Assembly (NCBI GenBank): GCA_027487865.1
Contig: JAIYCT010000002.1
Location: forward strand, 217,038 to 281,037
Direction: 5' to 3'
DNA from: Microbacteriaceae bacterium
GTDB taxonomy: Bacteria; Actinomycetota; Actinomycetes; Actinomycetales; Microbacteriaceae
DNA length: 64,000 nt
Below, in pieces: positions 44,643 through 60,157 of the stretch. The translations under genes were made by a program, and so were the position numbers. Below the pieces are notes generated by a model. The model saw nothing but the letters and a program-made list of their open reading frames with translations, did not search any database and was not told where the DNA came from. Position 1 is the stretch's first letter. Every line of letters begins with the position of its first letter.

Positions 44643-46101
44643 TGGACTGGCACTCTCGGCGCTGCTGTTACTTACCGGCTGTGTAGCGCAAGTCCCAAGT
44701 CCAATAGAGCAGGTTGAGTCCGGCGTTGATTTCTTGAAGCAGCAGATCAGCTGGGAGGCGTGTGATGCTGGCTTTGAGTGCTCATCCGTCGCTGTTCCGC
44801 TCGATCACCTAAGCCCGGATGGACAGGTTTTTGAAATCTCGCTGATCAGGAAAACCGGCACAGAAGACCTTTCTCCGCTTTTGATCAACCCGGGTGGTCC
44901 GGGAGCGAGTGGCGTGGCTTACCTTCGCGATAGCTATGACAGCCTCGGCACCGAAAAGCTTCGGAGTATTTTTCAGCTGATTGGCTTTGATCCCCGTGGA
45001 GTGGGGGAGTCAGCTCCAGTGACCTGTAGCGATCTGAGTCTGAAGGATCAGATTTATTACGAAGAATCTGGTTTCCCACTGGGATCTGACCAAGACATTG
45101 AAATCTCCAAAGATCTGTTGACGAGGTTTGCCGCCTCCTGCCAAGAGTCCGGTTTTGATGTTGCTTACTTCAACACCCAGCAGGCTGCGCGAGATTTGGA
45201 TGTGATTCGCTCTGCCCTTGGAGTTGAGGAGCTGGATTACCTAGGTTTCAGCTACGGCACAGAGCTCGGGGCCACCTACATCGCACTTTTCCCTAATCGA
45301 GTTGGCAGATTCGTGCTTGATGGAGCAGTTGACCCAACCCTGAGTTCTGGTGAGTCAACGGTGAAGCAAGTGGAGGGATTCGACAAAGCCTTCAGGACTT
45401 ACCTGGCGGACTGTCTCGCGCAAGCCGGTTGTCCATTCACAGGCACCGTGGACGACGCTTTGAAGCGGGTAGATGAGCTTTTAGTAGATCTTCAAACAAC
45501 CAAGCTGTCCAGTCAGTATGAGCGTGAGGTTGGACTGACGGCTGCGCTCTATGGAATCTTTGCGGCGCTTTATTCGCAAGCTTCGTGGCCTTATCTAACC
45601 CAAGCTTTTGAAGAGGCGTTTGAGGGTGATGGTTCGACGCTAATGCTGCTTGCCGACTTCTACAACGACAAAGACCCGGAGGGCGGTTACCTCTCCAATA
45701 TCAATGAGGCAAACACCGCCATCAATTGCGCCGATGAGCGAGTTGCCCCAGAGGACTTTGCGATTGTGAAGCAGTCCGCGCTTGATGCCAGCAAAGTCTT
45801 TGGCAAGTACTTCGCCTTCCCAGAACTAGGTTGCCTTGGCTGGCCCGAGGGGAAATCCATGGTCGAAATTGACTACGCGGTCGGTCTAGAAGTCGGTCCG
45901 TTGGTGATTGGAACAACTGGAGATCCGGCAACTCCTTATCAGCAGGCGGTCAGCTTGGCAAAGATCCTAAGTGGAGCGACGCTACTGACATTCCAAGGCG
46001 AAGGTCACACAGCCTACGGTTCGGATACTTGCGTCAATGACCATGTTGAGAATTATTTGTTGGGTGACAATCTTGGATCTGCAGAACTTATCTGCAATTA
46101 G
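44632..46101 (+). CDS. Secreted alpha/beta-hydrolase lipoprotein, tripeptidyl-aminopeptidase-like
   Basis: 489 residues from a TTG at 44632, overlapping holB by 11 bases; starting there gives an immediate lipoprotein signal, LSALLLLTGC. The body has INPGGPGASG (oxyanion region), DPRGVGES, the nucleophile Ser in GFSYGTELG, Asp in GTTGDPATP and His in GEGHTAYG. This is the pattern of SCO7095/Slp-type peptidases that trim N-terminal residues outside the cell. Peptidase role inferred from family. Confidence 0.87.
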   Translation: MRLSGLALSALLLLTGCVAQVPSPIEQVESGVDFLKQQISWEACDAGFECSSVAVPLDHLSPDGQVFEISLIRKTGTEDLSPLLINPGGPGASGVAYLRDSYDSLGTEKLRSIFQLIGFDPRGVGESAPVTCSDLSLKDQIYYEESGFPLGSDQDIEISKDLLTRFAASCQESGFDVAYFNTQQAARDLDVIRSALGVEELDYLGFSYGTELGATYIALFPNRVGRFVLDGAVDPTLSSGESTVKQVEGFDKAFRTYLADCLAQAGCPFTGTVDDALKRVDELLVDLQTTKLSSQYEREVGLTAALYGIFAALYSQASWPYLTQAFEEAFEGDGSTLMLLADFYNDKDPEGGYLSNINEANTAINCADERVAPEDFAIVKQSALDASKVFGKYFAFPELGCLGWPEGKSMVEIDYAVGLEVGPLVIGTTGDPATPYQQAVSLAKILSGATLLTFQGEGHTAYGSDTCVNDHVENYLLGDNLGSAELICN

Positions 46102-46104
46102 TTC

Positions 46105-46473
46105 TTAGGCGAACAGTCCCAGCAGAATCGCGATAAAGATTCCAACGAAGATTGCCGGGGTCACAAACTTGGCGATTTCAAGCCACGGTCTGAAGCTAAT
46201 GATTCTCTCGACCAGTGGGTACTTGTCGGTTACTAACTTCAGTGAGTCAATGGTTGCTTGGGCCTGTGAGGCAGCTGAATACTCAGCAAGTGCCCCAAGG
46301 ATTCCGCTTGCCAGAAGAATCAGGGCGAAACCAATCTTGAGATAATTGCCTGACCCGGCAATTTCTGGGGTAGCGATTGCAGCGAATGCCAATAGTCCTG
46401 TCGGTGCCAGCTGGGCCAAAATCAGGTGCAGGCGATTTGTATTGAATTCTCGGATTAGTTGCGAGGTTTCCAT
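46105..46473 (-). CDS. Small membrane protein, unknown function
   Basis: 122 residues with three or four hydrophobic stretches (about 20-38, 45-65, 98-120) and an Ala/Gln-rich loop (EYSAASQAQATIDSL). No family recognised. Head-to-head with the MpaB-like gene with only 27 bases between start codons. Confidence 0.6.
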   Translation of the reverse strand: METSQLIREFNTNRLHLILAQLAPTGLLAFAAIATPEIAGSGNYLKIGFALILLASGILGALAEYSAASQAQATIDSLKLVTDKYPLVERIISFRPWLEIAKFVTPAIFVGIFIAILLGLFA

Positions 46474-46500
46474 GGTTGCCCTTTCAGGAGATATAGACAG

Positions 46501-47406
46501 ATGCCTAGTAAGAACACCAAGCTACAAGAAAAGCTTTCAATTCGCTTTCGAAAGCTGCTCTCTGGAGCAACCGATGGAAACCCACCGTGGCTTTCGGTGG
46601 TTGCCGAAGGCGATGACATCGGAATGTTTTCCCCTAATGATGCTCCCTGGATTATTCACCGAGACTTCTCCACCTTGGTAGGGGGAGTAAGAGCGCTATT
46701 GATGCAGGCCCTTCACCCAGGATCTCTTGCTGGCGTTGCCCAGCACTCAAGGTATGAGCAGGATCCATTAGGCCGACTCTCCGGAACCATTCGCTGGCTG
46801 ACCATCACAACTTTCGGATCCAACCAGGCCGTTCAGAATGAAGCTGGCCGAGTCAATCGCATGCACACCAGAGTTAGCGGCGAGTACCAAACGGCACAGG
46901 GTGAAACCTCAAGCTATCGAGCTGCTGACCCAAGACTTCTGCTTTGGGTACACATCGCCTTTATGGAGAGTTTCCTGAGGTCTCATCAGAACTACTCCAA
47001 GGCTCCCATTCCGGGCGGTGCAGATGCCTACGTGAGGCTCTGGGGTAAATCTGTCGCGCCACTTGGGCTGGACGATGTTCCAACTTCGGAAGCAGAGCTC
47101 AACCTGTTGCTGGATGAGTTTTCAGAGGAGCTAATAGTCACCGACCAGACCCGCGCTGTGATCAAGTGGATTAAGAACGCGCCGCTGCCGCCACTGACTA
47201 AACCCGTCTACAAACTTCTCTTCTACTCTGCGGTCGCAAGCCTAGATCCAAGGTTCCGAGCGCTAATTGGAATTCGCTCAGCTCCACTTTGGCTACTGCG
47301 TCCGATCACCACCAGCCTGCTATCGCTAATGAGATTTGCCATTGGACCTGAATCTCCAATCGAGGATGCGGCACTTAGGCGAATTGATCGGGTAAAGGCC
47401 TCCTAG
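46501..47406 (+). CDS. MpaB-like / DUF2236 oxygenase-family protein
   Basis: 301 residues of the DUF2236 family, relatives of latex-clearing protein and mpaB, some of which bind heme b. The marks are WIIHRDFSTLVGGVRALLMQALHPGSLAGVAQHS, RLSGTIRWLTITTFG, and RVNRMHTRVSGEY with the conserved His pair candidates. ATG at 46501 with CAGGAG ten bases upstream, chosen over an in-frame start at 46459. Oxidative function likely, substrate unknown. Ends at a terminator. Confidence 0.8.
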   Translation: MPSKNTKLQEKLSIRFRKLLSGATDGNPPWLSVVAEGDDIGMFSPNDAPWIIHRDFSTLVGGVRALLMQALHPGSLAGVAQHSRYEQDPLGRLSGTIRWLTITTFGSNQAVQNEAGRVNRMHTRVSGEYQTAQGETSSYRAADPRLLLWVHIAFMESFLRSHQNYSKAPIPGGADAYVRLWGKSVAPLGLDDVPTSEAELNLLLDEFSEELIVTDQTRAVIKWIKNAPLPPLTKPVYKLLFYSAVASLDPRFRALIGIRSAPLWLLRPITTSLLSLMRFAIGPESPIEDAALRRIDRVKAS

Positions 47407-47407
47407 A

Positions 47408-47444
47408 GAAACGGGCAACCTCAATAGTTGCCTGTTTTTCTTTG
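47408..47444 (+). terminator. Rho-independent terminator
   Basis: A 12-bp stem (47408-47419 with about 47427-47438, including G-T pairs), 7-base loop, and T5 tail, right after the MpaB-like gene and before tRNA-Thr. Confidence 0.8.
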
Positions 47445-47475
47445 CCGCTAAACTTTTGACGTGCCGAAGGCATGC

Positions 47476-47548
47476 GCCACCCTAGCTCAGTCGGTAGAGC
47501 AGCTCCCTCGTAAAGAGCAGGTCAGGAGTTCGATTCTCCTGGGTGGCT
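47476..47548 (+). tRNA. tRNA-Thr (anticodon CGT)
   Basis: 73-nt tRNA: acceptor GCCACCC with GGGTGGC, D-arm GCTCAGTCGGTAGAGC, anticodon loop CTCGTAA (CGT), T-arm AGGAGTTCGATTCTCCT, discriminator T. The anticodon stem has one C-A mismatch next to the loop. CCA is not encoded. Reads ACG. Confidence 0.95.
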
Positions 47549-47605
47549 CTGAACAAGTTGAACCGTAACCCCGTTGGAGATCTAGAAGCAGGAAGGACTA
47601 TCGAG

Positions 47606-48319
47606 ATGGCACTGAAGGCATTGTTTGTGCAGCACGATCACGTCTCTCCGGTCGGACCAGTGGGCGAGAGACTTGAGATGCACGGATTTGAGATTGAGAC
47701 TCTTCCAATCGTGTCAGAGGAAAACTACCGAACTCCCAACATCGAGTTCAGTTTTCCTGACTTCAACGATTACGACCTCATCATTCCTCTCGGCTCCCCT
47801 TGGGGGGTCTGGGATGACGCCTGCATTGGAAACTGGTTGCAAAGTGAGCTCGACTGGATTGCAGCGGCAGTTGAAGCAGGTAAGCCAGTCCTTGGAATCT
47901 GTTTTGGTGGCCAGCTTCTGGCTCGAGCTCTAGGCGGCAAAGTCGACAGAGCACCCAGCCCAGAATTGGGGTGGACATACATCTTTAGCGATGACCCGTC
48001 ACTGGTGGGAAATGGACCTTGGTTCCAGTTCCACTATGACCGCTGGGAGTTGCCTCCGGGATCGGTAGAGATCGCACGCACCCCTAAAGCCTCTCAAGCC
48101 TTTACCTATAAGCGCGCACTCGCCCTGCAGTTTCATCCCGAGCTGAACGCCTCCACGCTTGAACAGTGGCTGGTTTGGGACGGTCGAGAAGAGATAACTG
48201 AGGATGGCCAAGATCCGGATGTGATGTTGCGTCAAACCCAAAACGAGGACCCTGCAGCGCGGCTTCGCACATTTGACCTAGTGGATCAGTTTCTAGAGCG
48301 AGTTGCAGGGCTTCGCTAA
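47606..48319 (+). CDS. Class I glutamine amidotransferase-like protein
   Basis: 237 residues of the GATase1 fold: nucleophile Cys in GICFGGQLLARALGG and His-x-Glu in LQFHPELN, so the triad is complete. No synthetase domain is attached. Such stand-alone proteins resemble GMP-synthase amidotransferases but may hydrolyse gamma-glutamyl amides. It sits convergent with (4-base overlap) the operon coding a PuuD-type hydrolase and a glutamine-synthetase-like ligase, so a role on gamma-glutamyl compounds is plausible. ATG at 47606, with GGAAGGA upstream. Confidence 0.8.
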   Translation: MALKALFVQHDHVSPVGPVGERLEMHGFEIETLPIVSEENYRTPNIEFSFPDFNDYDLIIPLGSPWGVWDDACIGNWLQSELDWIAAAVEAGKPVLGICFGGQLLARALGGKVDRAPSPELGWTYIFSDDPSLVGNGPWFQFHYDRWELPPGSVEIARTPKASQAFTYKRALALQFHPELNASTLEQWLVWDGREEITEDGQDPDVMLRQTQNEDPAARLRTFDLVDQFLERVAGLR

Positions 48320-49059
48320 GAAAGAAAACCTCGCAGCAATGCGGCCGATCCCTCTAGGTGAGTCCTCATGAGTTCGGAGGCAAGGGTTGGATTGCGGCTA
48401 ATAATGGCTTCCAGAATCTCCCGGTGTTGCTCATTGGAGTGCTTGATGTTTGGTGGCAGCAACGGAATTTGATCGAGCATCTCGTTGATCCTCGAGCGCG
48501 AAAAAGCCACCTCTTCGAGCAGTTTGTTTGATCCACAAGACTCCGCGATTAGCAGGTGAAATCGAGAATCAAATCTTCGGTAGTCAGCTGCCGATGACAA
48601 GGTGGTGTCCCGGTGAGCTTGATGTAGTGCTTTTTGCTGGTCTGCGCTTAGGTCAGACTTAGCCGACTGATAGGCCGCGCCGCACTCCACCACCTCCCGA
48701 AACAAAATGGCTTCCTCAAGAGCTTTTGACTCGAACTTGGCGTGCGGCCTGACTTGCTCAGGAAGCGATGCAGAGACGAATGTTCCTCCGTAGCGACCTC
48801 GGCTTATTTCCAAGAAACCAGCTTCAACCAGCGAGGAAATCGCCACCCTAACAGTGTCTCGAGAGACTCCCATAAGCCCAGCGAGATCTCGTTCCGCAGG
48901 CAGTTTTTGTCCAGGCGAGGCAAAGCCGAGCTTTATGGTTTGCAGAATCCGCTCCACAGTTTCTTCGTAGACGTTTCCACTGCGAATCCTGGTCAACAGC
49001 AGAGTGGAGTTTGCTACAGCAAAAACTGAGTCAGGTATTGCCGTCTCGGCTTGCATCAC
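48316..49059 (-). CDS. GntR/FadR-type (FCD) transcriptional regulator
   Basis: 247 residues: N-terminal winged helix (about 30-95; LPAERDLAGLMGVSRDTVRVAISSLVEAGFL) and a C-terminal FCD ligand domain with Asp/His metal-site candidates (FDSRFHLLIAES, NEQHREILEAI). Last gene of the operon 53291-48316, so likely its own regulator, sensing a pathway metabolite. The start is GTG 49059 or ATG 49056, overlapping the SDR stop. Confidence 0.88.
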   Translation of the reverse strand: MMQAETAIPDSVFAVANSTLLLTRIRSGNVYEETVERILQTIKLGFASPGQKLPAERDLAGLMGVSRDTVRVAISSLVEAGFLEISRGRYGGTFVSASLPEQVRPHAKFESKALEEAILFREVVECGAAYQSAKSDLSADQQKALHQAHRDTTLSSAADYRRFDSRFHLLIAESCGSNKLLEEVAFSRSRINEMLDQIPLLPPNIKHSNEQHREILEAIISRNPTLASELMRTHLEGSAALLRGFLS

Positions 49060-49844
49060 ATGGGTGTTACGTAGTGGCCTGAGATTCCACCATCGACCAA
49101 GAAGGTAGAGCCGGTAATAAATGAGCTGTCATCCGAAGCCAAGAACGCTACGGCTGCCGCTAGCTCGTCTGGGTCTGCAAACCTTCCCATCGGAATGTGG
49201 ATTAGACGTCGCGCTGCACGCTCAGGGTCTTTTGCAAAGAGCTCCTGAAGCAGTGGAGTGTTCACTGGACCAGGGCAGAGCGCGTTAACTCGAATGCCCT
49301 GGCGAGCAAACTGCACACCGAGTTCGCGGCTCATCGCCAACACACCACCCTTAGATGCTGTGTAGGAGATCTGACTGGTAGCACTTCCCATCACTGCCAC
49401 AAATGAAGCAGTGTTGATGATTGAGCCAGATCCCTGCTGGGTCATGTACTTCAGGGCTGCTCGGCAGCAGAGGTAAACACTCTTTAGGTTTACGTCTTGC
49501 ACTTTTTGCCAAGCAGGCATCTCGGTGGTCTCGATTGAGTCGTCATCCGGTGGCGAGATTCCAGCGTTATTGAAGGCAACGTCGACGCTGCCGTGCATTT
49601 TGAAGACCGTTTCGAACAGGTTGTTCACCTGCTCCTCGTCCGCGACGTTGACCTGCACGAAGTTACCGCCGACCTCATCGGCTGCGCGCTGGCCGCTTGC
49701 CGGATCCATGTCGGCAATCACAACCTTTGCCCCCTCCGCCGCAAATCTTCTGGCGGTGGCAAGACCAATTCCTGAAGCACCTCCGGTGATCACGGCGACT
49801 TTGCCCGCCAGTCTTTGGGTCAGATCCAGTTTCTTGATGCTCAT
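49056..49844 (-). CDS. Short-chain dehydrogenase/reductase, candidate gamma-glutamyl amino-alcohol dehydrogenase
   Basis: 262 residues of the classical SDR family: cofactor loop TGGASGIG, a following Asp in VVIADMD pointing to NAD, NNAGIS, catalytic Ser and YTASKG, and a C-terminal TGSTFLVDGG. In the operon it stands in the place where putrescine pathways have an FAD oxidase. The inferred reaction is oxidation of a gamma-glutamylated amino alcohol to the aldehyde used by the next enzyme. Family sure, substrate inferred. Confidence 0.85.
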   Translation of the reverse strand: MSIKKLDLTQRLAGKVAVITGGASGIGLATARRFAAEGAKVVIADMDPASGQRAADEVGGNFVQVNVADEEQVNNLFETVFKMHGSVDVAFNNAGISPPDDDSIETTEMPAWQKVQDVNLKSVYLCCRAALKYMTQQGSGSIINTASFVAVMGSATSQISYTASKGGVLAMSRELGVQFARQGIRVNALCPGPVNTPLLQELFAKDPERAARRLIHIPMGRFADPDELAAAVAFLASDDSSFITGSTFLVDGGISGHYVTPM

Positions 49845-49853
49845 TGCTTTCTC

Positions 49854-51209
49854 CTATTCAGCCGAGTAGTAAACAGTTTTTTCTTCTGTGAAGTGCAGCG
49901 GAGCGTCTGGGCCTAGCTCGCGACCAAGTCCAGACTGCTTCATTCCTCCAAAGGGGGTGTTGTATCGAACGGAGGAGTGAGAATTCACCGATAGATTTCC
50001 ACTCTCAATTCCCCTGGACACTCGAATCGCTCGACCCAGGTCCCTGGTCCAGATCGACCCGCTTAGTCCATAGATGGAATCGTTCGCGATTCTGATTGCA
50101 TCCGCCTCATCTTCGAAAGGCAATACCGAAACCACCGGCCCGAATACTTCTTCTTTGAAGCAGCGGTCATTTTCACCCTTTGCCATCAAAACGGTTGGTG
50201 CCATGAAATATCCCGGGCCTGATGGAGCACTGCCTTTGAACAAGACATCAGCGCCATCGAGGTAGCCCGACACTGAATCAAAATGCTTCTTCGAAACCAG
50301 TGGCCCCATATCCGTGCTCTCGTCCCTCGGGTCCCCGACCTTGAAGGCTTTAACCGAGGTCTCCAAACCGCTCAGGAATTCATCCAGCACGCTGCGCTGG
50401 ACAAGGATTCTGGAACGCGCGCAGCAATCCTGGCCGGCATTTTCAAACACTGAACTTGGCGCTGTCGCAGCCGCCTTGGCGACATCTGAATCCGCGAAAA
50501 CTATGTTTGCGCTTTTTCCGCCGAGCTCAAGGGTTACCCGCTTCACCTGATCGGCTGCCCCGCGCATAACCTGCTTACCCACTTCGGTTGAGCCTGTGAA
50601 GACAACCTTCCCAATTTCTGGGTGAGTGACAAACCTTGATCCGACTACAGATCCGCTTCCAGGTAGCACCTGGAAGAGACCCTCGGGTAGACCAGCCTCT
50701 TGCGCTAGTTCACCAAGCCGGATGCTCGTCATTGGAGTCCACTCCGCTGGCTTGAGCAATACAGCATTACCCGCTGCCAGAGCCGGGGCAAAACCCCAGC
50801 TACCGATGGTCATTGGAAAGTTCCAAGGGGTAATGATTCCAATGACACCAATTGGGTCGTGGAATGTGATGCTCATTCCATTAGCAACTGGAATTTGCTT
50901 GCCTGCCATGCGCTCCGGTGCTGCGGCGTAGTAGTCCAGCACATTTCGAACGTGGTTGGCTTCCCATCTAGCCTGAGAAATGGGGTGTCCAGAGTTAGCG
51001 ACCTCAAGCTGTGCAAGTTCCTCAACGTGCTGCTCAACCACCCGAGCAAAGTCATGCAGACCGCGGGCGCGCTCGGATGGAGCAAGAGCAGCCCACTTGC
51101 GCTGGGCGGCTTTAGCTCGAATAACAGCCTTGTCCACCTGCTCCTCGGTGGTGTGCTCTATCGATGCAATCTGCTCTTCGGTCGCAGGATTTATTACGTG
51201 GAAGGTCAT
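49854..51209 (-). CDS. NAD(P)-dependent aldehyde dehydrogenase (PuuC/GabD-like)
   Basis: 451 residues with TPWNFPMTIG, LKPAEWTP, Glu in LELGGKSAN and catalytic Cys in the GQDCCARSRI segment, plus FGGMKQSGLGRE near the end. It would oxidise the gamma-glutamyl aldehyde to the acid. Overlaps the PuuD-like gene by 4 bases. Succinate-semialdehyde dehydrogenase or betaine-aldehyde dehydrogenase activities are alternatives from sequence alone. Confidence 0.88.
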   Translation of the reverse strand: MTFHVINPATEEQIASIEHTTEEQVDKAVIRAKAAQRKWAALAPSERARGLHDFARVVEQHVEELAQLEVANSGHPISQARWEANHVRNVLDYYAAAPERMAGKQIPVANGMSITFHDPIGVIGIITPWNFPMTIGSWGFAPALAAGNAVLLKPAEWTPMTSIRLGELAQEAGLPEGLFQVLPGSGSVVGSRFVTHPEIGKVVFTGSTEVGKQVMRGAADQVKRVTLELGGKSANIVFADSDVAKAAATAPSSVFENAGQDCCARSRILVQRSVLDEFLSGLETSVKAFKVGDPRDESTDMGPLVSKKHFDSVSGYLDGADVLFKGSAPSGPGYFMAPTVLMAKGENDRCFKEEVFGPVVSVLPFEDEADAIRIANDSIYGLSGSIWTRDLGRAIRVSRGIESGNLSVNSHSSVRYNTPFGGMKQSGLGRELGPDAPLHFTEEKTVYYSAE

Positions 51210-51940
51210 TTTGCTCCTCTGCGCGCCTTAGCGGCGGCAACTAGTGCTTTGAATAGATCTAGGTTGTCGAGCGTCTGCTCAGGGTGCCACTGCACAGCCA
51301 CTCCAAATGGGTAATTCTCAAGTTCGATTCCCTCAATCACACCGTCTGGGCTCTTCGACGAGACAACAAGGCCCTCGCCCAATTGGTCAATTGCCTGGTG
51401 GTGATAAAGAGCTGCCCCTGAAACTACCGGGCTTGAAACAGACTGACTCAGCTTTGTGCCGGGTAAGACATTCAGATCCATATGGGTGAATACACCACCA
51501 CCGAGCTGGTATCGGTTATCGCCCAAAACATCCGGTAGGTGTTGAATCAGTGTTCCACCACGATTTACATTGAGCATCTGGGCGCCTCGACAGATTCCGA
51601 GCAGCGGCAGCTCCGCCTTTATGGCGGCGGTTAGGAGTGTGTCCTCCATCTCATCGCGTACCGAATCCGCATCCTCAGCATTTGGGTGAGGGGCCTGGCC
51701 ATATCTGGTTGAATCAACGTCGCGACCGCCGCAAATAATCAGACCGTCGAGCCTTGAAACAATTTCTGCGGCATCAGCTTGACCGATTGCCTGCGGCGGA
51801 ATAATCACAGGGACGCCACCGGCTCTGGACACACCCTCTAGGTAGAAGGCAGGCAACATTGCCATCTCGGTGTCCCAAACACCCGTTTGTCCACGCTGTC
51901 GGTAGCTAGTTAGACCAATAAGCGGATTAGACACGCTCAA
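51206..51940 (-). CDS. Gamma-glutamyl-gamma-aminobutyrate hydrolase family protein (PuuD-like)
   Basis: 244-residue peptidase C26: catalytic Cys in LLGICRGAQMLNV and the His in VAVQWHPEQT, plus IICGGRDVDSTRYGQ. It splits gamma-glutamyl amides, regenerating glutamate. Overlaps the ligase gene by 14 bases. In this operon it should release the amine-derived acid from its gamma-glutamyl conjugate. Confidence 0.9.
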   Translation of the reverse strand: MSVSNPLIGLTSYRQRGQTGVWDTEMAMLPAFYLEGVSRAGGVPVIIPPQAIGQADAAEIVSRLDGLIICGGRDVDSTRYGQAPHPNAEDADSVRDEMEDTLLTAAIKAELPLLGICRGAQMLNVNRGGTLIQHLPDVLGDNRYQLGGGVFTHMDLNVLPGTKLSQSVSSPVVSGAALYHHQAIDQLGEGLVVSSKSPDGVIEGIELENYPFGVAVQWHPEQTLDNLDLFKALVAAAKARRGAK

Positions 51941-53291
51941 ATCCTCTGACTCGCTCCCACTCTGTCACTGCGGAGTTGTAGTCCCTGATCTCGGTTTTCG
52001 CGTAGTGCACATAGTGATCTACTACTGCGTCTCCAAAAACCTCTCGGGCAATCTTCGAATTTGCGAACAGCTCCATCGCCTCGGGCATGCTGGAGGGGAT
52101 ACGAGGCTTGTCAGATGCGTAACCGTTTCCGACCGTCATTTCCTCAAGGTCAAGATTGTTCTCAATCCCGTAGATTCCTGCTGCGATCATGGCAGCAGTC
52201 GCGAGGTATTGATTTACATCGCCACCCGGCACTCGATTCTCAACCCTCATGCCGTGCCCCTGGCCAACAACCCTCAACGCCAAAGTTCGATTGTCAAGGC
52301 CCCAGGCAATCGCGGTGGGGGCAAAGCTGCCCTCCACGTAGCGCTTGTAGGAGTTGATCTGAGGAGCGTAGAGCAGCGAGAACTCGCGCATTAGCTTCAT
52401 CTGTCCGGCAAGGAAGCTCTTGAAAGTAGCCGACATTCCGCGAGGGTCGGACTTATCAGCGAATACCGCCGATCCGTCGAGGCCTCGGAAAGACATGTGG
52501 ATGTGGCAGGAGTTTCCCTCCCGCTCGTTGTACTTTGCCATGAAGGTAAGTGACTTGCCGTGCTTCTCGGCGATTATCTTGGCTCCGGATTTGTAGACAC
52601 CGTGGTTATCGCAGGTGCGCACTACCTCGTCATAAAGGAAAGCGATTTCCTGCTGACCGAGATTGCACTCGCCTTTGACGCCCTCGCAATACATGCCTGC
52701 AGCATCCATTGAGTTTCGAATTTCGCGCAGCATTGGTTCTAAGCGGGTGGAAGCCAAGATGTCGTAGTCCACGTTGTAATCGGTCGAAGCCTTGAGGTCC
52801 TTATAACCCTTTGCCCAAGCCTCGCGGTAGGTGTCGTCAAAGACAATGAACTCCAGCTCGGTACCGACAAATGCCCGCATCCCCAACTTCTCCAGGCGTT
52901 CGACCTGGCGTAACAAAATCGACCTGGGAGACTCGGCAATGAGCTCATGACTGGTGGTGTAGAGATCTGTGTTTACGATGACGCTGCCCGGAAGCCAGGG
53001 TGCCATTCGCATAGTGCTCATGTCGGGAATCATCGCCATGTCCGCATAACCGGTGTCCCAAGAGCTGATGTCATAGCCCTGCACGGTGTTGTTCTCGATG
53101 TCAACCGCCAGTAGGTAGTTGCAACACTCGGCGCCATGCCCAGCAAGATTCTCAATGAAGTGACGGGCAGAGGCCCGCTTGCCAATTAGGCGGCCCTGCA
53201 TGTCTGTGAACCCCATGACCACGGTGTCAATCTCACCTGATTCATAGAGGTTCTTCAGTTGCTCGAGGCTAATGAATCCTTTGTTCGACAT
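51927..53291 (-). CDS. Glutamine-synthetase-like gamma-glutamyl-amine ligase (GlnA3/GlnA4/PuuA type)
   Basis: 454 residues, ATP-dependent ligation of glutamate to an amine. Glutamine-synthetase motifs are present: metal ligands in FVGTELEF and EGVKGECNLGQQEIAF, EGNSCHIHMS, NSYKRYVEGSFAPT and NRVPGGDVNQY, but there is no adenylylation Tyr motif, as in this subgroup rather than true GlnA. Start at ATG 53291 with an AGAGGG site; an upstream in-frame start at 53333 is less likely. First gene of the five-gene operon. The amine could be ethanolamine, putrescine or another; context favours ethanolamine. Confidence 0.88.
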   Translation of the reverse strand: MSNKGFISLEQLKNLYESGEIDTVVMGFTDMQGRLIGKRASARHFIENLAGHGAECCNYLLAVDIENNTVQGYDISSWDTGYADMAMIPDMSTMRMAPWLPGSVIVNTDLYTTSHELIAESPRSILLRQVERLEKLGMRAFVGTELEFIVFDDTYREAWAKGYKDLKASTDYNVDYDILASTRLEPMLREIRNSMDAAGMYCEGVKGECNLGQQEIAFLYDEVVRTCDNHGVYKSGAKIIAEKHGKSLTFMAKYNEREGNSCHIHMSFRGLDGSAVFADKSDPRGMSATFKSFLAGQMKLMREFSLLYAPQINSYKRYVEGSFAPTAIAWGLDNRTLALRVVGQGHGMRVENRVPGGDVNQYLATAAMIAAGIYGIENNLDLEEMTVGNGYASDKPRIPSSMPEAMELFANSKIAREVFGDAVVDHYVHYAKTEIRDYNSAVTEWERVRGFERV

Positions 53292-53554
53292 AACACCCTC
53301 TTCTTTGAGGTCGAATTTCCTACCTTTGACCAAACACTACAACTATCTCTGGATGTGCGTTGGCTACTTTTGGACCTCAGAGCGAAAAAATATAACAATC
53401 TGATGCGTCTGAAGGAATATTTCAGATATTGCAAAATCAACACACGAGGTGCCCTCTTTTGGGTCTAGATTGAAATTGTTTCATCCATTCACAACGTCGT
53501 GCGTGGAGAGCCCTCGACTCGGGGACTTTTCTGGGGCGACAGATTAGGAAGCAA
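53292..53554. promoter_or_regulatory. Divergent control region between ligase operon and permease
   Basis: 263 bases with no gene. They must hold promoters for both directions and probably the GntR site. The AT-rich part at about 53385-53445 contains TATATT on the minus strand and an imperfect palindrome around 53418-53430. I could not find a clean GntR consensus. Confidence 0.5.
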
Positions 53555-55030
53555 ATGTCTTCAGAGCATGTCAAAGTCTCAGGCGCAACCTACAAGCGTC
53601 CTGAGGACGGTTATTTTGAAAAGCGCCAGCTGAAACGAGCGGCTGGAATCTATGGCCTTTGGGGATTGGCTGTCGCGGCCGTTATCTCCGGAGACTTCTC
53701 CGGCTGGAACTTCGGGCTGGACGTAGGTGGTTTCGGCGGTCTACTAATCGCCTTCGCAATCCTCGTCGTCATGTACTACGGTCTGATGTTCTCAATCGGT
53801 GAGATGTCCTCAGCTATGCCTCACACCGGAGGCGCGTACTCATTCGCCAGATCTGCAATGGGCCCGTGGGGTGGATTCATCACCGGCTTGGCGGAGACCA
53901 TTGCCTATGTTGCGACGACCGCAGTTATTGTGTTCTTCTCGGCAAGCTACGCAGATGGCATCTTCTCCGAACTGTTCGGGTTATCTCTGCCGAACTGGGC
54001 TTGGTGGATCATCCTCTACGTTGTATTCGTGGCCTTGAACGCCACCGGCGCGAAGGTCGCATTTAGATTTGCAATTGTGGTGGCGATCATTTCCCTCGCA
54101 ATCCTTTTGGTTTTCTCAATCATGGCCGCAGCATCGGGTCTGTTCTCATGGGACAACCTCTTCAACATCGCTCCAGACCCTGGCCAGACAGCGTTCTTGC
54201 CATTTGGCTGGGAGGGAATCCTGTGGGCAATTCCGTTTGCGGTTTGGTTCTTCCTTGGTATCGAGGAACTGCCACTTGCTGCGGAAGAATCCCACAACCC
54301 AGTGCGTGACATCCCAAGAGCTGGACTTTGGGCTCGCACCACCCTAATTGTCTTCGGTCTACTAATTCTTTTCTTGAACACCGGAATCGTTGGTGCCGAG
54401 GAACTTAGGGTCGCAGGCGAGCCGCTTTTGGATGGCTTCCGTGCGATGGTTGGCGATCAGGCTGCTGCACTACTGGGCCTAGTTGCACTAATCGGTCTGT
54501 TGGCCTCGCTGCAGGGAATCATGTTTGCTTACGGTAGAAACATGTACTCACTATCCAGAGCGGGTTACTACCCGAGGTTCCTCTCGATTACCAACCGTTC
54601 AAAAACCCCATTGGTGGCATTGATTGCCGGAGCGATTATTGGGTTCGTAGCGCTGTTGGCTATTGAGGTACTAACGGCTGTTGACGCCGAGGGTGCCGGA
54701 GCAGTTGCCGGTGCAATCGTGCTAAACATTGCGGTTTGGGGAGCAATGCTTGCCTACATGATGCAGGCAATCAGCTTCCTGCTGCTTCGTCGCAACCTAC
54801 CAAACATCGACCGTCCATACCGTTCTCCTTGGGGAGTCCCAGGAGCGGTTATTGCAGCGGTTATCGCCGGTATCTCATTCGTGGGTTACCTCATTAACCC
54901 TGCATTCCAGACCGCAATCGCCGGTATCGCTGTGATTTACATCGTGATGCTGATTGCGTTCGCTGTTCGAGGCCGTCACAACCTAGTGATGTCTCCGGAA
55001 GAGCAGTACGCAGTAGACAACACCAAGTAG
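53555..55030 (+). CDS. APC-family permease, ethanolamine-permease-like
   Basis: 491 residues with about twelve membrane segments. The opening LWGLAVAAVISGDFSGWNFGL, MPHTGGAYSFARSAMGPWGG and PFAVWFFLGIEELPLAAEESHNP are the features I associate with the ethanolamine permease (Eat) branch of the APC family rather than with PuuP-like putrescine carriers. TAGGAAG ribosome site. Divergent from the ligase operon and followed by a hairpin terminator and sdaA. Transport of another small amine or amino acid cannot be excluded. Confidence 0.82.
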   Translation: MSSEHVKVSGATYKRPEDGYFEKRQLKRAAGIYGLWGLAVAAVISGDFSGWNFGLDVGGFGGLLIAFAILVVMYYGLMFSIGEMSSAMPHTGGAYSFARSAMGPWGGFITGLAETIAYVATTAVIVFFSASYADGIFSELFGLSLPNWAWWIILYVVFVALNATGAKVAFRFAIVVAIISLAILLVFSIMAAASGLFSWDNLFNIAPDPGQTAFLPFGWEGILWAIPFAVWFFLGIEELPLAAEESHNPVRDIPRAGLWARTTLIVFGLLILFLNTGIVGAEELRVAGEPLLDGFRAMVGDQAAALLGLVALIGLLASLQGIMFAYGRNMYSLSRAGYYPRFLSITNRSKTPLVALIAGAIIGFVALLAIEVLTAVDAEGAGAVAGAIVLNIAVWGAMLAYMMQAISFLLLRRNLPNIDRPYRSPWGVPGAVIAAVIAGISFVGYLINPAFQTAIAGIAVIYIVMLIAFAVRGRHNLVMSPEEQYAVDNTK

Positions 55031-55044
55031 GTGTAACTCCAATA

Positions 55045-55083
55045 GCGAAAGCGGGTCGACTAGTTTTGTCGGCCCGCTTTTCG
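55045..55083 (+). terminator. Hairpin terminator or attenuator before sdaA
   Basis: GC-rich stem, 55045-55060 with 55068-55083 (one bulge, one G-T pair), loop rich in T, tail CTTTTCGC with only four T. It ends one base before the sdaA ribosome site, so it may give partial read-through or block the site. Confidence 0.65.
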
Positions 55084-55095
55084 CGAGGAAAGACT

Positions 55096-56445
55096 ATGAA
55101 GCAAATTGGCGCACTAGATCTATTCACAATCGGCATCGGACCGTCTTCATCTCACACCGTGGGTCCGATGCGTGCAGCATTTCGCTTTGCCCATCTAGTG
55201 GAGGGCCAGGAAATAGATCGAGTCCAGGTGATTCTCTACGGCTCACTGGCGGCCACCGGAGTTGGGCACGGCACGAAGGACGCCCTCGCAGCTGGTCTGG
55301 CTGGTTACACCCCAGAGCTGTGCGACCCAGAAATGGTTCGAGGTGCATTTGAAAGATCTATTGAATCCGGAAGAATTTCTATCCTGAACCGCGAGGTCCC
55401 ATTCGCGGAAGAAAACCTCGAGCTGCGCTCTCGAGAAAGACTCTCTCATCACTCAAACGGAATGACTTTTCAGGCACTGCTTGCAGGTCACGTGGTCCAG
55501 GAGCAGACCTACTTCAGTGTCGGGGGAGGCTTTATTGAGACCCTCGGACTGCAGCAGGAGGAGGACGGAACCGAGGTTCCATATCCCTTCGCATCGGCGG
55601 TCGAACTGATTCAGTTGGCTAAAGCTAATTCGATGACCATCGCCGAGTTGACATATGCGAATGAGATCGCCATGCACCCCAAAGATGTTGTCGACCAGAA
55701 GCTGAAAAGTATCTGGGAGGCGATGCGCAACTGCATCGAGAACGGTCTGCAAGCCGAGGGAATCCTCCCTGGTTTTCTCAAGGTCCCCAGAAGGGCAAAG
55801 TCGATGACTGCCGCTCTGCACCGCGTGGTGGAAGACGGGACCGCGGTCGGAGACCTGACAGCGGAGTGGCTGCAAGCCTTCGCCATTGCGGTCAATGAAG
55901 AGAACGCTGCCGGAAACAGGGTTGTCACTGCTCCGACCAATGGAGCTGCCGGAATCATTCCAGCGGTTGCCTATTTTGCCCACCGGTTTCGTGGCGTGAG
56001 CGACGAGAAAATTGCCTTTGATTACCTGCTAACGGCAGCCGCGATTGGCTCGCTCTACAAACGCAACGCCTCGATCTCGGGCGCTGAGGCGGGTTGTCAG
56101 GGTGAGGTGGGCTCGGCCTGCTCTATGGCTGCGGCAGCCATTACCGCTGTCATGGGTGGGACCCTAGAGCAGATTGAAAACGCTGCTGAGATTGCCATGG
56201 AGCACAACCTGGGTCTGACCTGCGACCCTGTTGGTGGATTTGTGCAGCTGCCATGCATCGAGCGCAATGCGATTGCGGCCGGGACTGCAGTGGCGGCCAT
56301 GAGGCTTGCCCTGATGGGAGATGGTGTGCACAAGATTTCGCTGGACACCGTTATTGAGACCATGCGCCAGACGGGGTTGGATATGTCATCGAAGTACAAA
56401 GAGACCTCCACTGGCGGGCTGGCCGTGAACGTAGTGGAGTGCTAA
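55096..56445 (+). CDS. sdaA: L-serine dehydratase, iron-sulfur type, single chain
   Basis: Deaminates L-serine to pyruvate. 449 residues from ATG 55096 (GAGGAAAG upstream); an in-frame start at 55066 lies within the terminator stem. The N-terminal beta domain has the IGIGPSSSHTVGPMRAA signature, and the alpha domain has the Cys set (GCQGEVGSAC and LTCDPVGGFVQLPC) that binds a 4Fe-4S cluster. Next to the ethanolamine-like permease and the ligase operon, it would use serine made from released glycine. Ends at a terminator. Confidence 0.95.
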   Translation: MKQIGALDLFTIGIGPSSSHTVGPMRAAFRFAHLVEGQEIDRVQVILYGSLAATGVGHGTKDALAAGLAGYTPELCDPEMVRGAFERSIESGRISILNREVPFAEENLELRSRERLSHHSNGMTFQALLAGHVVQEQTYFSVGGGFIETLGLQQEEDGTEVPYPFASAVELIQLAKANSMTIAELTYANEIAMHPKDVVDQKLKSIWEAMRNCIENGLQAEGILPGFLKVPRRAKSMTAALHRVVEDGTAVGDLTAEWLQAFAIAVNEENAAGNRVVTAPTNGAAGIIPAVAYFAHRFRGVSDEKIAFDYLLTAAAIGSLYKRNASISGAEAGCQGEVGSACSMAAAAITAVMGGTLEQIENAAEIAMEHNLGLTCDPVGGFVQLPCIERNAIAAGTAVAAMRLALMGDGVHKISLDTVIETMRQTGLDMSSKYKETSTGGLAVNVVEC

Positions 56446-56462
56446 GGATCAGGCTTAAATGT

Positions 56463-56500
56463 GAAAATGCCCCTCCCTTTCAGGAGGGGCATTTTCCTTT
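56463..56500. terminator. Strong bidirectional terminator
   Basis: A perfect 14-bp stem (56463-56476 with 56483-56496) with AAAA and TTTT flanks, between convergent sdaA and the PhoX-like gene. Confidence 0.9.
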
Positions 56501-56503
56501 GAA

Positions 56504-58081
56504 CTAGTTGTAGATTGCTGCCCAGTCGGAGATCTCGAGGACGTAAAGCTGTCCACCCTCGATGATGCTTGCCAAGCTGGTTGCTGCGTCTGCGATGTCT
56601 GGTCTAGAGATTGCAGGGGTAGCGTGGATCTGTGCGTTCAAGATGTAGTAACGGCTCTTGTCGCTAGTGCTCTTTCGGAAGAACTTGGTCACATCGGTAA
56701 CACCGCTGGACTCCTCGTCTTCGGTCATGAATGCTGCCTGACCCTTTTCGAAGTACTGCTGCTTGAACTGTAGAACGGTTGCTAGCTGAGCGGTCTTGGT
56801 GTTGTAAGCCACTAGACGCGCACGGAGAGCGTTGTTACCCGGATCCTCCTGGATCAACACGTTGCCAAGGTCGTCGACCTCAATGTTGTCTGGCTTGGAT
56901 AGGTAAGGAGCCTCAGAACCATCTAGCAGCATGGTTAGTGTCGCACCAGCTAGCGGCTTCTTGACGTCCTTGAAGGTTAGCTTCCATAGCGCTCCACCGT
57001 CACGGGAGACGGTTGGGGTTGCTGGGTTTGGAGTAGTAGCCTTTGCATCCTTGTTGGACTGAGTGGTTACGAAGTAGTAGACGTTTGGGTTCTTAGGGTC
57101 AAACGCGCCATCTTCAACGCGAGAGAAACCAACACCCCAGGTCTGTGCGAATTCGTTCTGAAGGGTTCCGCTGTTCCTCCAGTTAACCTCGTTGAAGGAA
57201 ACCGGTACGGATACGTTCTTCGAGTAGGAAGCGCGGAATGCGGTGTCAGTCCTGACGCCGTTGATTCCCAAAACGTAGTTCTTACCGTTGTTTAGTCCGG
57301 CCTTTTCGAACCAAAGACCCTTGTTGTTCTTGGTTCCAACATACATCCAAAGCTGAGAGTCGATGTCGTTGCCGTCCTCGCCACCTAGAACAACGGTGGT
57401 TGCAGTCTTGGTGTTAGCTACCTGGAAAGACTCCCAAGATGCAAGACCTAGGCGTGGTAGCTGAACTAGCTGACCAGCTTCGTTTGCAGCGAATGCACGA
57501 GACTCAACACCAGCTTCTTCACCGGTTAGGAAAACGTTGCCGGTGTAGCCAATGGTGGTCTTGCCAGACTTGTAGGAAAGTACGCCGGCTGCTGCCAATC
57601 CTGCAGAGCAGAAGCGGTTTAGCATGCGGGTGTGAGCCACAGTCGATGCCGGAGCGTAAGCTGGTGCGCCCGGTGCAGCCGCGTGTAGGCCGAGTGCGTA
57701 GTCGTACCAGATGACGTCGTTTAGGTGCTCTTTGGCATCTAGAACCTTGCCGGTTACTGGGTCAACGGTGAAGCGAGTGATGGTTGAACCACCGGTTGCG
57801 TCACCTGCAGCGCGAGAAATGCTTGCTGCGATGCCAGTCGCTGCGATCTCGTGGTTCATTAGGATCTGAAGCTTGCCGCCCTGGGTGTAAGCACCCATGC
57901 CGTCTGGAATACCTGGAACCATCCAGCTGCCGTAGGTGTTACCAGATGTTGCAAGCACCGAAAGCTTTGCGGTTGCCTTTACTGACTCTAGGTAAATCGG
58001 CTCAGTTGAGTTTGCCGAAGCTGGGATGCTCATACCTAAAATTGCTGCCGGGATTAGCGACAAAGCAATGTATTTGCGCAT
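56504..58081 (-). CDS. PhoX-like DUF839 secreted protein (putative alkaline phosphatase)
   Basis: 525 residues with a Sec-type signal peptide ending about ASANS (residue 24). The body has PhoX/DUF839 marks: ILMNHEIAATG, FLTGEEAG, VLGGEDGND, DNIEVDDLGNVLIQEDPGNN and MTEDEESSGVTDV. PhoX enzymes are calcium/iron phosphatases scavenging phosphate outside the cell; here the classical Cys and Arg residues were not verified, so phosphatase activity is likely but not proven. AAGGAG site before the ATG. A single GTTCACC half-site, like PhoP boxes, lies upstream (about 58150-58156, minus strand). Confidence 0.8.
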   Translation of the reverse strand: MRKYIALSLIPAAILGMSIPASANSTEPIYLESVKATAKLSVLATSGNTYGSWMVPGIPDGMGAYTQGGKLQILMNHEIAATGIAASISRAAGDATGGSTITRFTVDPVTGKVLDAKEHLNDVIWYDYALGLHAAAPGAPAYAPASTVAHTRMLNRFCSAGLAAAGVLSYKSGKTTIGYTGNVFLTGEEAGVESRAFAANEAGQLVQLPRLGLASWESFQVANTKTATTVVLGGEDGNDIDSQLWMYVGTKNNKGLWFEKAGLNNGKNYVLGINGVRTDTAFRASYSKNVSVPVSFNEVNWRNSGTLQNEFAQTWGVGFSRVEDGAFDPKNPNVYYFVTTQSNKDAKATTPNPATPTVSRDGGALWKLTFKDVKKPLAGATLTMLLDGSEAPYLSKPDNIEVDDLGNVLIQEDPGNNALRARLVAYNTKTAQLATVLQFKQQYFEKGQAAFMTEDEESSGVTDVTKFFRKSTSDKSRYYILNAQIHATPAISRPDIADAATSLASIIEGGQLYVLEISDWAAIYN

Positions 58082-58282
58082 TTGTTCTCCTTGTTTGGGG
58101 GACGTTCGGGGAAACTATCGATTAGCGAAGCAAACTTCTTTGATGCAAATGGTGAACAAAGGACGCGCCGACGGTTTCCTAGAGATGAATTCCTTAGAAT
58201 TTCCTGAGAGTTTTTGGCGTTAGTCGCACAGCACTCATTCCCTTAAGCTTTGAACCAGTTTTAGTTGTGAAAAGGAAGTGCC

Positions 58283-58690
58283 GTGCCTACTTTCAGCGAT
58301 GCCGAAAAAGCCGCCATGCAGGAGAGGGCTCGCGAGCAGCGAGAGTTCAAAAAGCTATCTGGTGAGGAGCAGGTCAGTCGCAAGATTTCGGAGATGAATC
58401 CCCAAGAGAAGAAACTCGCCCAGGGGATTCATGATCTAGTGCTTGCAATTGAACCGAAGCTCAAACCTCAGACTTGGTATGGCATGCCTGCCTACTACCT
58501 CGATGGCAAGGTGGTTTGTTTCTTCCAGGCCGGTTCGAAGTTTGAATCTCGCTACTCAACCTTTGGGTTCCAAGAGGCAGCCCAGCTGGATGACGGTCAT
58601 ATGTTCGCAACCAGTTTCGCGGTTCTGGAATTCACTCCAGCGGTGGCAGAGCAGATTTCAAAGCTCGTGCGTAAGGCAGTTGGTCAGTAA
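58283..58690 (+). CDS. DUF1801 domain protein
   Basis: 135 residues, GTG start with AAAAGGAAG. The DUF1801/YdhG pattern is visible in LVLAIEPKLKPQTWYGMPAYYLDGKVVCFF and the STFGFQEAAQLDDGHM segment. An N-terminal charged helix (about 1-40) is added. Function unknown. Convergent with the GH13 gene, with stops adjacent. Confidence 0.8.
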   Translation: MPTFSDAEKAAMQERAREQREFKKLSGEEQVSRKISEMNPQEKKLAQGIHDLVLAIEPKLKPQTWYGMPAYYLDGKVVCFFQAGSKFESRYSTFGFQEAAQLDDGHMFATSFAVLEFTPAVAEQISKLVRKAVGQ

Positions 58691-60157
58691 CTAAAAGCTT
58701 GCCAGTTCGGCAATCGTTGTAAACCGGCGCTCACCGGCTGCTGATTTGTGAACCAAGCTGAAGCTAGGCGCACCGACGGTAGTTGCAAATTCAAAGTGCA
58801 GCTCATCTTTAGCTCCGGTCCAGCTCATGGCTAGCCTGTCCGAACCCAATACCTGCCAGGCGAAGTTGCCTTCGAAGGCGCTCGATCTGCGAATTCTCGC
58901 CATCGCAATAATCGCCTGGGTTACCTCACTCTTGAGAGCCTGGTCAATTTCCGCAGGGGTGTAGTTGTGGCGGTTGGTGTCACGACCCTGGGCAGTTGTT
59001 GCAAAAAGCTCTTTGTCATCCATGCCGTTGAAGAGCCCGACGTAGTAGACCTGCGGTTCTCCCGGCAGCAAGAACTGCACCATGCGAGAGATTACATAAG
59101 CGGTGTCATTAGCCAAGATGTTCGGCAAGGTGGCATTGATCTGGTGTGGCAAGTCAAACCACTGCGGGATCACGCTGGCAATTGCGGAGTGGCCGCCGGT
59201 GTTCTCCTCGGCCTTTTTGAAGATAAAGGCCATCTCGTCTTGGGTGATAAGACCTGGGCGACCGCCAATTGGTCCGCCATCAATCACGCCGTAACCATCG
59301 TGGGTATCCAGCACATTTAGGCAGTTGTCTGGGCGAATCTTGAACCAGTTGTCCAAGCGATCAACCGTGCCAGTGAAGAAAGAGTGCAATAGCAGCGGCG
59401 CGGTTTGGAAATCGTAGATCAGATCAACCAGCGGTGCGATGTCCAACTGCTGGGTGTAGTGAGCGTGAACCTCGACTAGAACTCGCATGTCGTAACCGTG
59501 GATCTTCTCGGTCAGCTCTTTTACGAACTCCAATGTCTCTGGAGTCATAAACGAGTCTGTGCCCGGAGTCTTTACGGCATAGCCAATTGCATCTAGGCGA
59601 ACGACCTTGACGCCACCGGACTTTAGGGCACGCAACACTCGGTCCAGGTAGTCCTGTCCAGCTGGGTGGTTGATGTCGATGTCAACCTGCGATGGCATGA
59701 AGGTTGTCCAAACCAATCTGCGCTCACCGGCAACGTTGTAAGCGGTGAAGGGGAAGCCCGGTCTAGGTCGGTAGAAAGAGGTAATACCTTCTTCGGTTCC
59801 GCCATTTGGGAACACCACATCGTAGGTGAGGAACATTCCTGCAAACTCTGAGTCATCACCCTTTTCCTGCCAATCCAAAAACTCCGGGGAGAGGTAGGAG
59901 GCGTGGTTCACAATCAGGTCAGCTGTGAGCTCGTGGGTCTCGGAAATGCGCTTGAAGTCAGTCCAGTTGCCAAGACGAGGATCCACAATGCTGTGGTCAA
60001 TTGGGTCAAAGCCCGCGTCATCACCGTCATACGGGTGAAAGAACGGAAGCACGTGAATGCCGCTGAAGTCTTTTAGTGGACCCGCAAGTAGCTTCTCAAT
60101 CTCGGAAAGGCTTCCTCCCACGCGCTCGGCGTAAACGAGAATGCTGGCGCCCGACAT
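58691..60157 (-). CDS. GH13 subfamily 18 glucoside phosphorylase (sucrose-phosphorylase-like)
   Basis: 488 residues. Catalytic set of the sucrose phosphorylase group: nucleophile Asp in VRLDAIGYA, acid/base Glu in VLVEVHAHY and Asp in LDTHDGYG; the start (ILVYAERVGGSLSEIEKLL) and HVLPFFHPYDGDDAGFDPIDH are typical. It phosphorolyses sucrose or a related glucoside (sucrose-6-phosphate, glucosylglycerate) to glucose-1-phosphate. Strong AGGAGG site. Two LacI-like operator sites lie upstream, so it is probably sugar-inducible. Which glucoside cannot be told from the sequence alone. Confidence 0.88.
   Translation of the reverse strand: MSGASILVYAERVGGSLSEIEKLLAGPLKDFSGIHVLPFFHPYDGDDAGFDPIDHSIVDPRLGNWTDFKRISETHELTADLIVNHASYLSPEFLDWQEKGDDSEFAGMFLTYDVVFPNGGTEEGITSFYRPRPGFPFTAYNVAGERRLVWTTFMPSQVDIDINHPAGQDYLDRVLRALKSGGVKVVRLDAIGYAVKTPGTDSFMTPETLEFVKELTEKIHGYDMRVLVEVHAHYTQQLDIAPLVDLIYDFQTAPLLLHSFFTGTVDRLDNWFKIRPDNCLNVLDTHDGYGVIDGGPIGGRPGLITQDEMAFIFKKAEENTGGHSAIASVIPQWFDLPHQINATLPNILANDTAYVISRMVQFLLPGEPQVYYVGLFNGMDDKELFATTAQGRDTNRHNYTPAEIDQALKSEVTQAIIAMARIRRSSAFEGNFAWQVLGSDRLAMSWTGAKDELHFEFATTVGAPSFSLVHKSAAGERRFTTIAELASF

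Follow-up and report, generated by a model that had tools for sequence, protein, structure and literature searches.

A predicted gamma-glutamyl ethanolamine utilization module with a linked L-serine dehydratase gene in a Microbacteriaceae genome

Introduction

Which compound would a bacterium break down with a glutamine synthetase (GS)-like ligase, a PuuD-type hydrolase, and two dehydrogenases encoded in one operon? The question is raised by a gene cluster in a stretch of 64,000 nucleotides (hereafter, the window) from a Microbacteriaceae bacterium (GenBank assembly GCA_027487865.1, contig JAIYCT010000002.1, positions 217,038 to 281,037). A sequence-only reading of this DNA had proposed a chain from ethanolamine through gamma-glutamylethanolamide, an aldehyde, and gamma-glutamylglycine to glycine, serine, and pyruvate. 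From comparison with related proteins and loci, we predict that the cluster is very probably a gamma-glutamyl (GlnA4-type) ethanolamine utilization module. The host genome comprises 1,465,243 bases (1.47 Mb) in 13 contigs and is 99.1% complete. The features that carry the argument are as follows, in window positions.

51927–53291, minus strand: predicted GlnA4-type gamma-glutamylethanolamide synthetase (PF00120; solved chains 11zs and 5dm3; tree; 13 of 13 residues)
51206–51940, minus strand: PuuD-type (peptidase C26) hydrolase, proposed gamma-glutamylglycine amidohydrolase (PF07722, 193.2 bits; 6vtv; motifs)
49854–51209, minus strand: aldehyde dehydrogenase (ALDH), proposed to convert the gamma-glutamyl aldehyde to gamma-glutamylglycine (PF00171, 537.8 bits; motifs)
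49056–49844, minus strand: short-chain dehydrogenase (SDR), proposed gamma-glutamylethanolamide dehydrogenase (PF13561; NF004713; motifs; co-occurrence)
48316–49059, minus strand: GntR/FCD regulator, proposed repressor of the module (PF00392 and PF07729; co-occurrence)
53292–53554, no strand: divergent promoter region with, at best, a degenerate candidate operator (pattern count in relatives)
53555–55030, plus strand: APC-family permease, proposed ethanolamine permease of the Eat type (TIGR00908, 357.5 bits; cut-off 381.75)
55096–56445, plus strand: SdaA, L-serine dehydratase, proposed last step from serine to pyruvate (TIGR00720; linked SdaA group)

Gene Cluster and Proposed Pathway

Five genes form a minus-strand operon in the order ligase, C26 hydrolase, ALDH, SDR, and gntR. 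The ligase gene overlaps the hydrolase gene by 14 bp, overlaps of 4 bp each join hydrolase to ALDH and SDR to gntR, and the ALDH and SDR genes are 9 bp apart. The permease and sdaA genes diverge from the operon, both on the plus strand and separated by 65 bp. All of these open reading frames are intact, and the Pfam and NCBIfam assignments agree with the families named in the sequence-only reading, whose gene layout therefore stands. To place the layout among relatives, we sampled the best 80 of at least 583 confirmed ligase relatives, hence the nearest kin, and counted only loci with enough flank at the identity cut-offs of our script. The hydrolase gene adjoins the ligase gene in 77 of 78 loci; an ALDH gene comes next in 70 of 72 and an SDR gene in 71 of 71. 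A divergent permease gene (59 of 74) and a downstream gntR (52 of 68) are also common. Because the gene order is kept across the relatives' loci, it is not due to chance. Within the same sample, the nearest ligase relatives come from Microbacteriaceae-labeled metagenome-assembled genomes (one pond) and Micrococcales at 99%, with Rhodoluna limnophila at 83%. Judging from these labels, the host is probably aquatic and its group presumably freshwater.

In the proposed pathway, the permease would import ethanolamine, the ligase would join it to glutamate using ATP, and the SDR would oxidize the alcohol of gamma-glutamylethanolamide to an aldehyde, which the ALDH would convert to gamma-glutamylglycine. 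The C26 hydrolase would then free glycine and give glutamate back, and the GntR protein would hold the module repressed until an inducer is present. Two glycines would yield one serine via glycine cleavage and serine hydroxymethyltransferase (SHMT), both encoded elsewhere, and SdaA, taken as part of the module in this lineage, would split serine into pyruvate and ammonia. All enzymatic steps are inferred, as are the transport, the identity of the inducer, and the shared use of sdaA. The sequence-only reading had found a use for every gene, with SHMT as the sole enzyme lacking from the cluster; we located SHMT elsewhere in the genome, together with GcvP and GcvT, so that one serine could be formed from two glycines. 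The proposed chemistry from ethanolamine to glycine finds good support in ligase orthology, conserved residues, the neighborhood, and the missing EutB.

The Eut pathway, which relies on ethanolamine ammonia-lyase, acts on the same substrate but passes through acetaldehyde, an intermediate not expected for the module in the window. EutB had no match in the host genome (99.1% complete), and the E. coli control was matched. Ethanolamine is a piece of membrane lipids; it would serve the host as a carbon and energy source, besides a nitrogen source. Lipid head groups would then become a carbon source, which is a testable ecological point and no new biochemistry, and the gamma-glutamyl ethanolamine route is now placed in a small genome (1.47 Mb).

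Ligase Assignment and the Polyamine Alternative

The solved chains closest to the ligase are 11zs (398.5 bits) and 5dm3 (384.2 bits), the next being an archaeal glutamine synthetase at 161.5 bits. Chain 5dm3 is presumably the ethanolamine ligase of Chromohalobacter salexigens; in the literature searched, its entry code gave only chance matches and Csal_0679 was not found. We built a quick tree from 59 of 116 prepared rows. One group (SH-aLRT 99) unites the window ligase and its orthologs with the Streptomyces rimosus GlnA4-type ligase, 5dm3, and 11zs. Outside it fall E. coli PuuA, two groups of ordinary GS, and the remaining GS-like paralogs, although the deep branching order is unsure because long branches meet there, as the tool warned. 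The tree check proposed by the sequence-only reading hence places the ligase with GlnA4-type enzymes and not with PuuA. Identity is 58% to the S. rimosus ligase, 43–44% to 11zs and 5dm3, 27% to PuuA, and 25–26% to the host's three further GS-like proteins; the ordinary GlnA of the host is not the closest relative.

As the sequence-only reading had noted, ligation of ethanolamine by a GlnA4-type enzyme is known from Streptomyces coelicolor, where GlnA4 is reported to be ethanolamine-specific with a Km of 0.47 mM (PMC6529630). All 13 residues published for the metal, glutamate, ATP, and flap sites of that enzyme are present in the window ligase when placed by motif position (offset −11 up to 276 and −8 from 325) rather than by alignment to the S. 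coelicolor sequence. These comprise metal residues (E145, E147, E208, E215, H263, E351), glutamate residues (E258, G259, R317, R353, with E147 serving there too), ATP residues (H265, R340), and the flap residue F323.

A polyamine (Puu-like) route, in which putrescine would be glutamylated and then degraded, has to be weighed, as the cluster has a PuuD-type hydrolase and an ALDH in common with Puu. The E. coli Puu system (MG1655) follows the same logic of glutamylation, oxidation, and hydrolysis, and its hydrolase and ALDH are 28% and 39% identical to those of the window. The ligase, however, is only 27% identical to PuuA, as given above, and reaches 154.3 of the 650 bits required by the NCBIfam gamma-glutamylputrescine synthetase model. 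Moreover, E. coli Puu employs the FAD oxidase PuuB where the window has an SDR, which is found in every relative with enough flank. The sequence-only reading was right that an FAD oxidase is missing from the cluster and a dehydrogenase stands in its place: Pfam recognized no FAD oxidase among the eight cluster proteins. Proteins of the DAO family of FAD enzymes are encoded elsewhere in the genome (12 matches at E ≤ 0.001, none within the cluster), the nearest gene ending about 0.5 kb beyond the left end of the window and some 47 kb from the cluster.

The permease leans toward ethanolamine as well. Its best model, though the score is below the curated cut-off, is TIGR00908 (ethanolamine permease, 357.5 bits), well ahead of the next (111.7 bits); on models of basic amino acid/polyamine and putrescine-ornithine antiporters it scores 79.7 and 37.6 bits. 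E. coli PuuP had no TIGR00908 match at 1e-20. The comparison with putrescine carriers that the sequence-only reading had suggested thus comes out on the ethanolamine side, and together these points make a polyamine route extremely improbable.

The remaining enzymes that a GlnA4-type ethanolamine pathway calls for are encoded in the cluster. The hydrolase carries the motifs GICRGAQ (Cys) and QWHPEQ (His-Glu), which we presume to be catalytic; the solved PuuD 6vtv matches it at 2e-21, and it scores 88 of 266 bits on the NCBIfam PuuD model, below the cut-off. The ALDH contains GQDCCAR and LELGGKS and reaches no NCBIfam cut-off among its best 25 models. The SDR contains GGASGIG and SYTASK and passes NF004713 (503 bits against a cut-off of 404), a model named for 3-oxoacyl-ACP reductase.

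Several observations weigh against the ethanolamine pathway as proposed. At a constant offset, the published amine-side residue D186 is kept, whereas D69, D81, and V189 differ. With only 58% identity to the S. rimosus ligase and 43–44% to the solved chains, the enzyme may have a shifted amine preference. The permease falls short of the curated TIGR00908 cut-off (381.75 bits), as does the cluster permease of Agromyces (343.3 bits), with those of S. rimosus (479.7 bits) and R. rhodnii (539.4 bits) above it. Of the glycine cleavage system, the search covered the P and T proteins. Finally, the promoter region of the window has only a degenerate form of the operator discussed below (AAAGGT-N10-ACCTCA, two mismatches by eye) and is outside the 34 regions that carry it.

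A shifted preference could mean another amino alcohol, for example serinol (2-amino-1,3-propanediol), which would lead through gamma-glutamylserine to serine and pyruvate with no SHMT or glycine cleavage. Such a route would employ every gene, sdaA included, and draw on no enzyme from elsewhere; the linked SdaA proteins do form a group of their own, and the modest identity of the ligase to its S. rimosus relative is in keeping with it. Yet serinol is rare in nature, and of the 68 loci with sufficient flank, 61 have the block of ligase, SDR, ALDH, and hydrolase genes but no adjacent sdaA. The family member assayed in the literature was specific for ethanolamine (PMC6529630), and we consider serinol or a similar substrate improbable. 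Narrowed to the sdaA-linked Microbacteriaceae, where a cassette acting on a substrate such as serinol would, together with SdaA, suffice to turn the amino alcohol into pyruvate, the proposal seems quite improbable as well.

Linkage of sdaA

SdaA itself is readily assigned, passing TIGR00720 with 583 bits against a cut-off of 345.1. Its gene lies directly past the permease gene in 10 of the 80 loci, namely 7 of the 68 with enough flank plus 3 that are truncated. Of 37 SdaA proteins placed in a careful tree, 15 are linked, and 14 of these form one group (support 99/97); the fifteenth, from genome G003, stands apart on a long branch (AU p 0.000135 against one group). This tree leaves out the copies L001, L099, and L154 and matches covering less than 60% of the query. 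Its unlinked rows are 20 hand-chosen from the 108 sdaA-bearing genomes other than the four linked ones (best matches and ligase-bearing kin) plus two Leucobacter loci with sdaA 6–7 kb away, counted as unlinked. Several branches of the ligase tree retain the linkage (the window with L144, L008, and L009; L013; and L015 with L145 and L146). All three congeners in the family sample (G013, G095, and G157) have neither ligase nor sdaA at the cut-offs used. Because 14 of the 15 linked SdaA proteins are one group and these congeners lack both genes, recruitment of sdaA to the module is favored, and the data favor one Microbacteriaceae group having joined sdaA to a predicted ethanolamine module.

The gene could also be a mere neighbor with its own promoter, serving general serine breakdown, in which case the module would end at glycine; this is compatible with the ethanolamine pathway. 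Among 199 Microbacteriaceae genomes, the ligase was found in 89, sdaA in 112, and both in 52, most of which have sdaA unlinked. A spacing of less than 2 kb was seen for only four pairs (in the host, G000, and in G131, G184, and G003), with distances computed for eight same-contig pairs and the remainder read by eye. Near kin of the window (L080, L012, L014, L023, and L038) lack sdaA at this place, L080 having the module with a ligase 83% identical to that of the window, and a ligase match is lacking in 60 of the 112 sdaA-bearing genomes. Since sdaA is rarely linked, absent beside the L080 module, and often present without the ligase, the pathway does not require it. Against the neighbor-only explanation stand a linkage that persists in several ligase-tree branches whose SdaA proteins are one group, the second, separate linkage in G003, the joint absence of both genes from three congeners, and the position of sdaA 65 bp from the permease gene on the same strand. 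We therefore regard the neighbor-only explanation as unlikely, though it deserves serious consideration, and retain a joint role of SdaA in the ethanolamine module as the favored reading.

The G003 locus (L147, G003:C1:1986000-2002000) is of a different make. A different sdaA lies 0.3 kb upstream of the ligase gene, at the usual place of the permease gene, and no permease match was found in these 16 kb.

Candidate Operator

In S. coelicolor, EpuRI represses glnA4, and deletion of epuRI derepresses it (PMC6529630). We searched 70 intergenic regions for shared operators; the pattern count below uses 64 of them, the remaining six being copies. Exact 5+5 dyads were common to at most 6 of the 70 regions, copies included, and to at most 2 after shuffling. 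A pattern picked by eye from gapped words and from an alignment of 46 regions, AAWGGT-N(6-14)-ACCWTT, gave a candidate operator, AAWGGT-N10/11-ACCWTT. It occurs with at most one mismatch in 34 of 46 permease–ligase gaps (shuffle mean 1.03), the same 46 from which it was chosen, a choice for which the shuffles make no correction, and once in 18 further regions (loci L051–L085, outside the 46). The spacer in 45 candidate sites is 10 in 20 cases, 11 in 23, and 12 in 2.

Comparison with Known Systems

The sequence-only reading had called a whole operon with permease and SDR little described. This does not hold, as such operons are already published (PMC6529630, PMC10132767), and the pathway is a known one because those of Streptomyces and Phaeobacter are in print. 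Streptomyces clusters of the GlnA4 (SCO1610–SCO1615) type share the SDR, ALDH, GlnA4 ligase, regulator, permease, and glutamine amidotransferase functions (PMC6529630). Several Streptomyces are reported to have this set of genes together with the permease, an identical chain to glycine is proposed, and the cluster permease from another Streptomyces improved growth on ethanolamine when expressed (PMC6529630). The end products of the GlnA4 route are given as glycine and glutamate (PMC9397018).

Differences are nevertheless apparent. The S. coelicolor cluster itself is described without a permease, unlike the window (PMC6529630). In Streptomyces, as seen in the S. rimosus locus (L076), hydrolase, permease, and regulator genes are all upstream of the ligase gene, unlike the hydrolase and regulator genes of the window, and the permeases of S. 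rimosus and the window share about 40% identity. The published Streptomyces gene list contains no sdaA (PMC6529630), and none is adjacent in L076, whereas the window has one. The operon of Phaeobacter sp. MED193 unites the same four catalytic functions but has a TRAP transporter (EtoVWX) and an RpiR regulator where the window has an APC permease and GntR; its enzymes are raised during growth on phosphoethanolamine (PMC10132767). The route has also been demonstrated in C. salexigens and Agrobacterium tumefaciens, as cited in PMC10132767. What stands of the novelty claim is the linked sdaA, a modest extension of a known pathway: in a narrow search of open-licence literature, we did not meet sdaA linked to an ethanolamine module, and no open-licence paper searched combines Rhodoluna with ethanolamine.

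Variation at the tRNA-Thr Site

Two further features lie at the left end of the cluster.

47476–47549, plus strand: tRNA-Thr (cgt), left edge of the variable module
47606–48319, plus strand: class-I glutamine amidotransferase, possible accessory gamma-glutamyl hydrolase (PF00117; closest chain 7d54)

A ligase ortholog (at least 89% identical) is present in 4 of 22 genus genomes, the host included, and in 3 of the 13 with a completeness of 90% or more and a contamination of 5% or less. In genome G211 (assembly 70% complete), a PhoX-like gene, a terminator-like stem, and tRNA-Thr are directly consecutive on a contig that spans the site, and because these flanks adjoin directly, the stretch matching 47550–56454 is absent. 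G206 (L154), 94–95% identical in DNA here, has the module without the amidotransferase gene, which is present with the module in G199 (L144). The site beside tRNA-Thr (47476–56454) thus varies in the genus between a full module, a module minus the amidotransferase gene, and an empty site, and the ethanolamine module is accessory in the genus. We also considered a mobile element. None of 20 direct-repeat families (at least 14 nt) listed across 47400–56700 connects the tRNA-Thr side of the module with its opposite end, and Pfam recognized no integrase among 12 window proteins of 44473–60157; this reading was rejected, leaving a variable site beside a tRNA gene.

The amidotransferase gene is convergent with gntR, overlapping it by 4 bp, and lies within the coordinates of the sequence-only reading, whose text does not discuss it. 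Its closest solved chain, 7d54 (1.7e-64), is presumably the polyamine hydrolase PauD2. On the other flank, 56504–58081 encodes a PhoX-like protein, which matches PhoX only in part (38.3 bits) and occurs in 5 of 22 genus genomes. Defense-system models matched neither this protein nor the amidotransferase. Phaeobacter PhoX contributes to freeing ethanolamine from phosphoethanolamine (PMC10132767), and by analogy a link of the PhoX-like protein to such release is possible. Gene and module do not always travel together, G211 having the gene at the empty site and G199 the module without the gene.

Other loci of the gamma-glutamyl type were seen in passing. The host genome has a second one (L143, G000:C7:212000-224000), encoding an APC permease, an acetoacetate-decarboxylase-family protein, a GS-like ligase, a class-I amidotransferase 63% identical to that of the window, a cytochrome P450, a MarR regulator, a C26 hydrolase, and an ALDH. 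To our knowledge, a P450 beside such a GS-like ligase is unusual. In Salinibacterium (L029, L031, and L033), the ethanolamine block is joined, some 5–8 kb off, by a second GS-like ligase (26%), accompanied by a relative of the window's amidotransferase.

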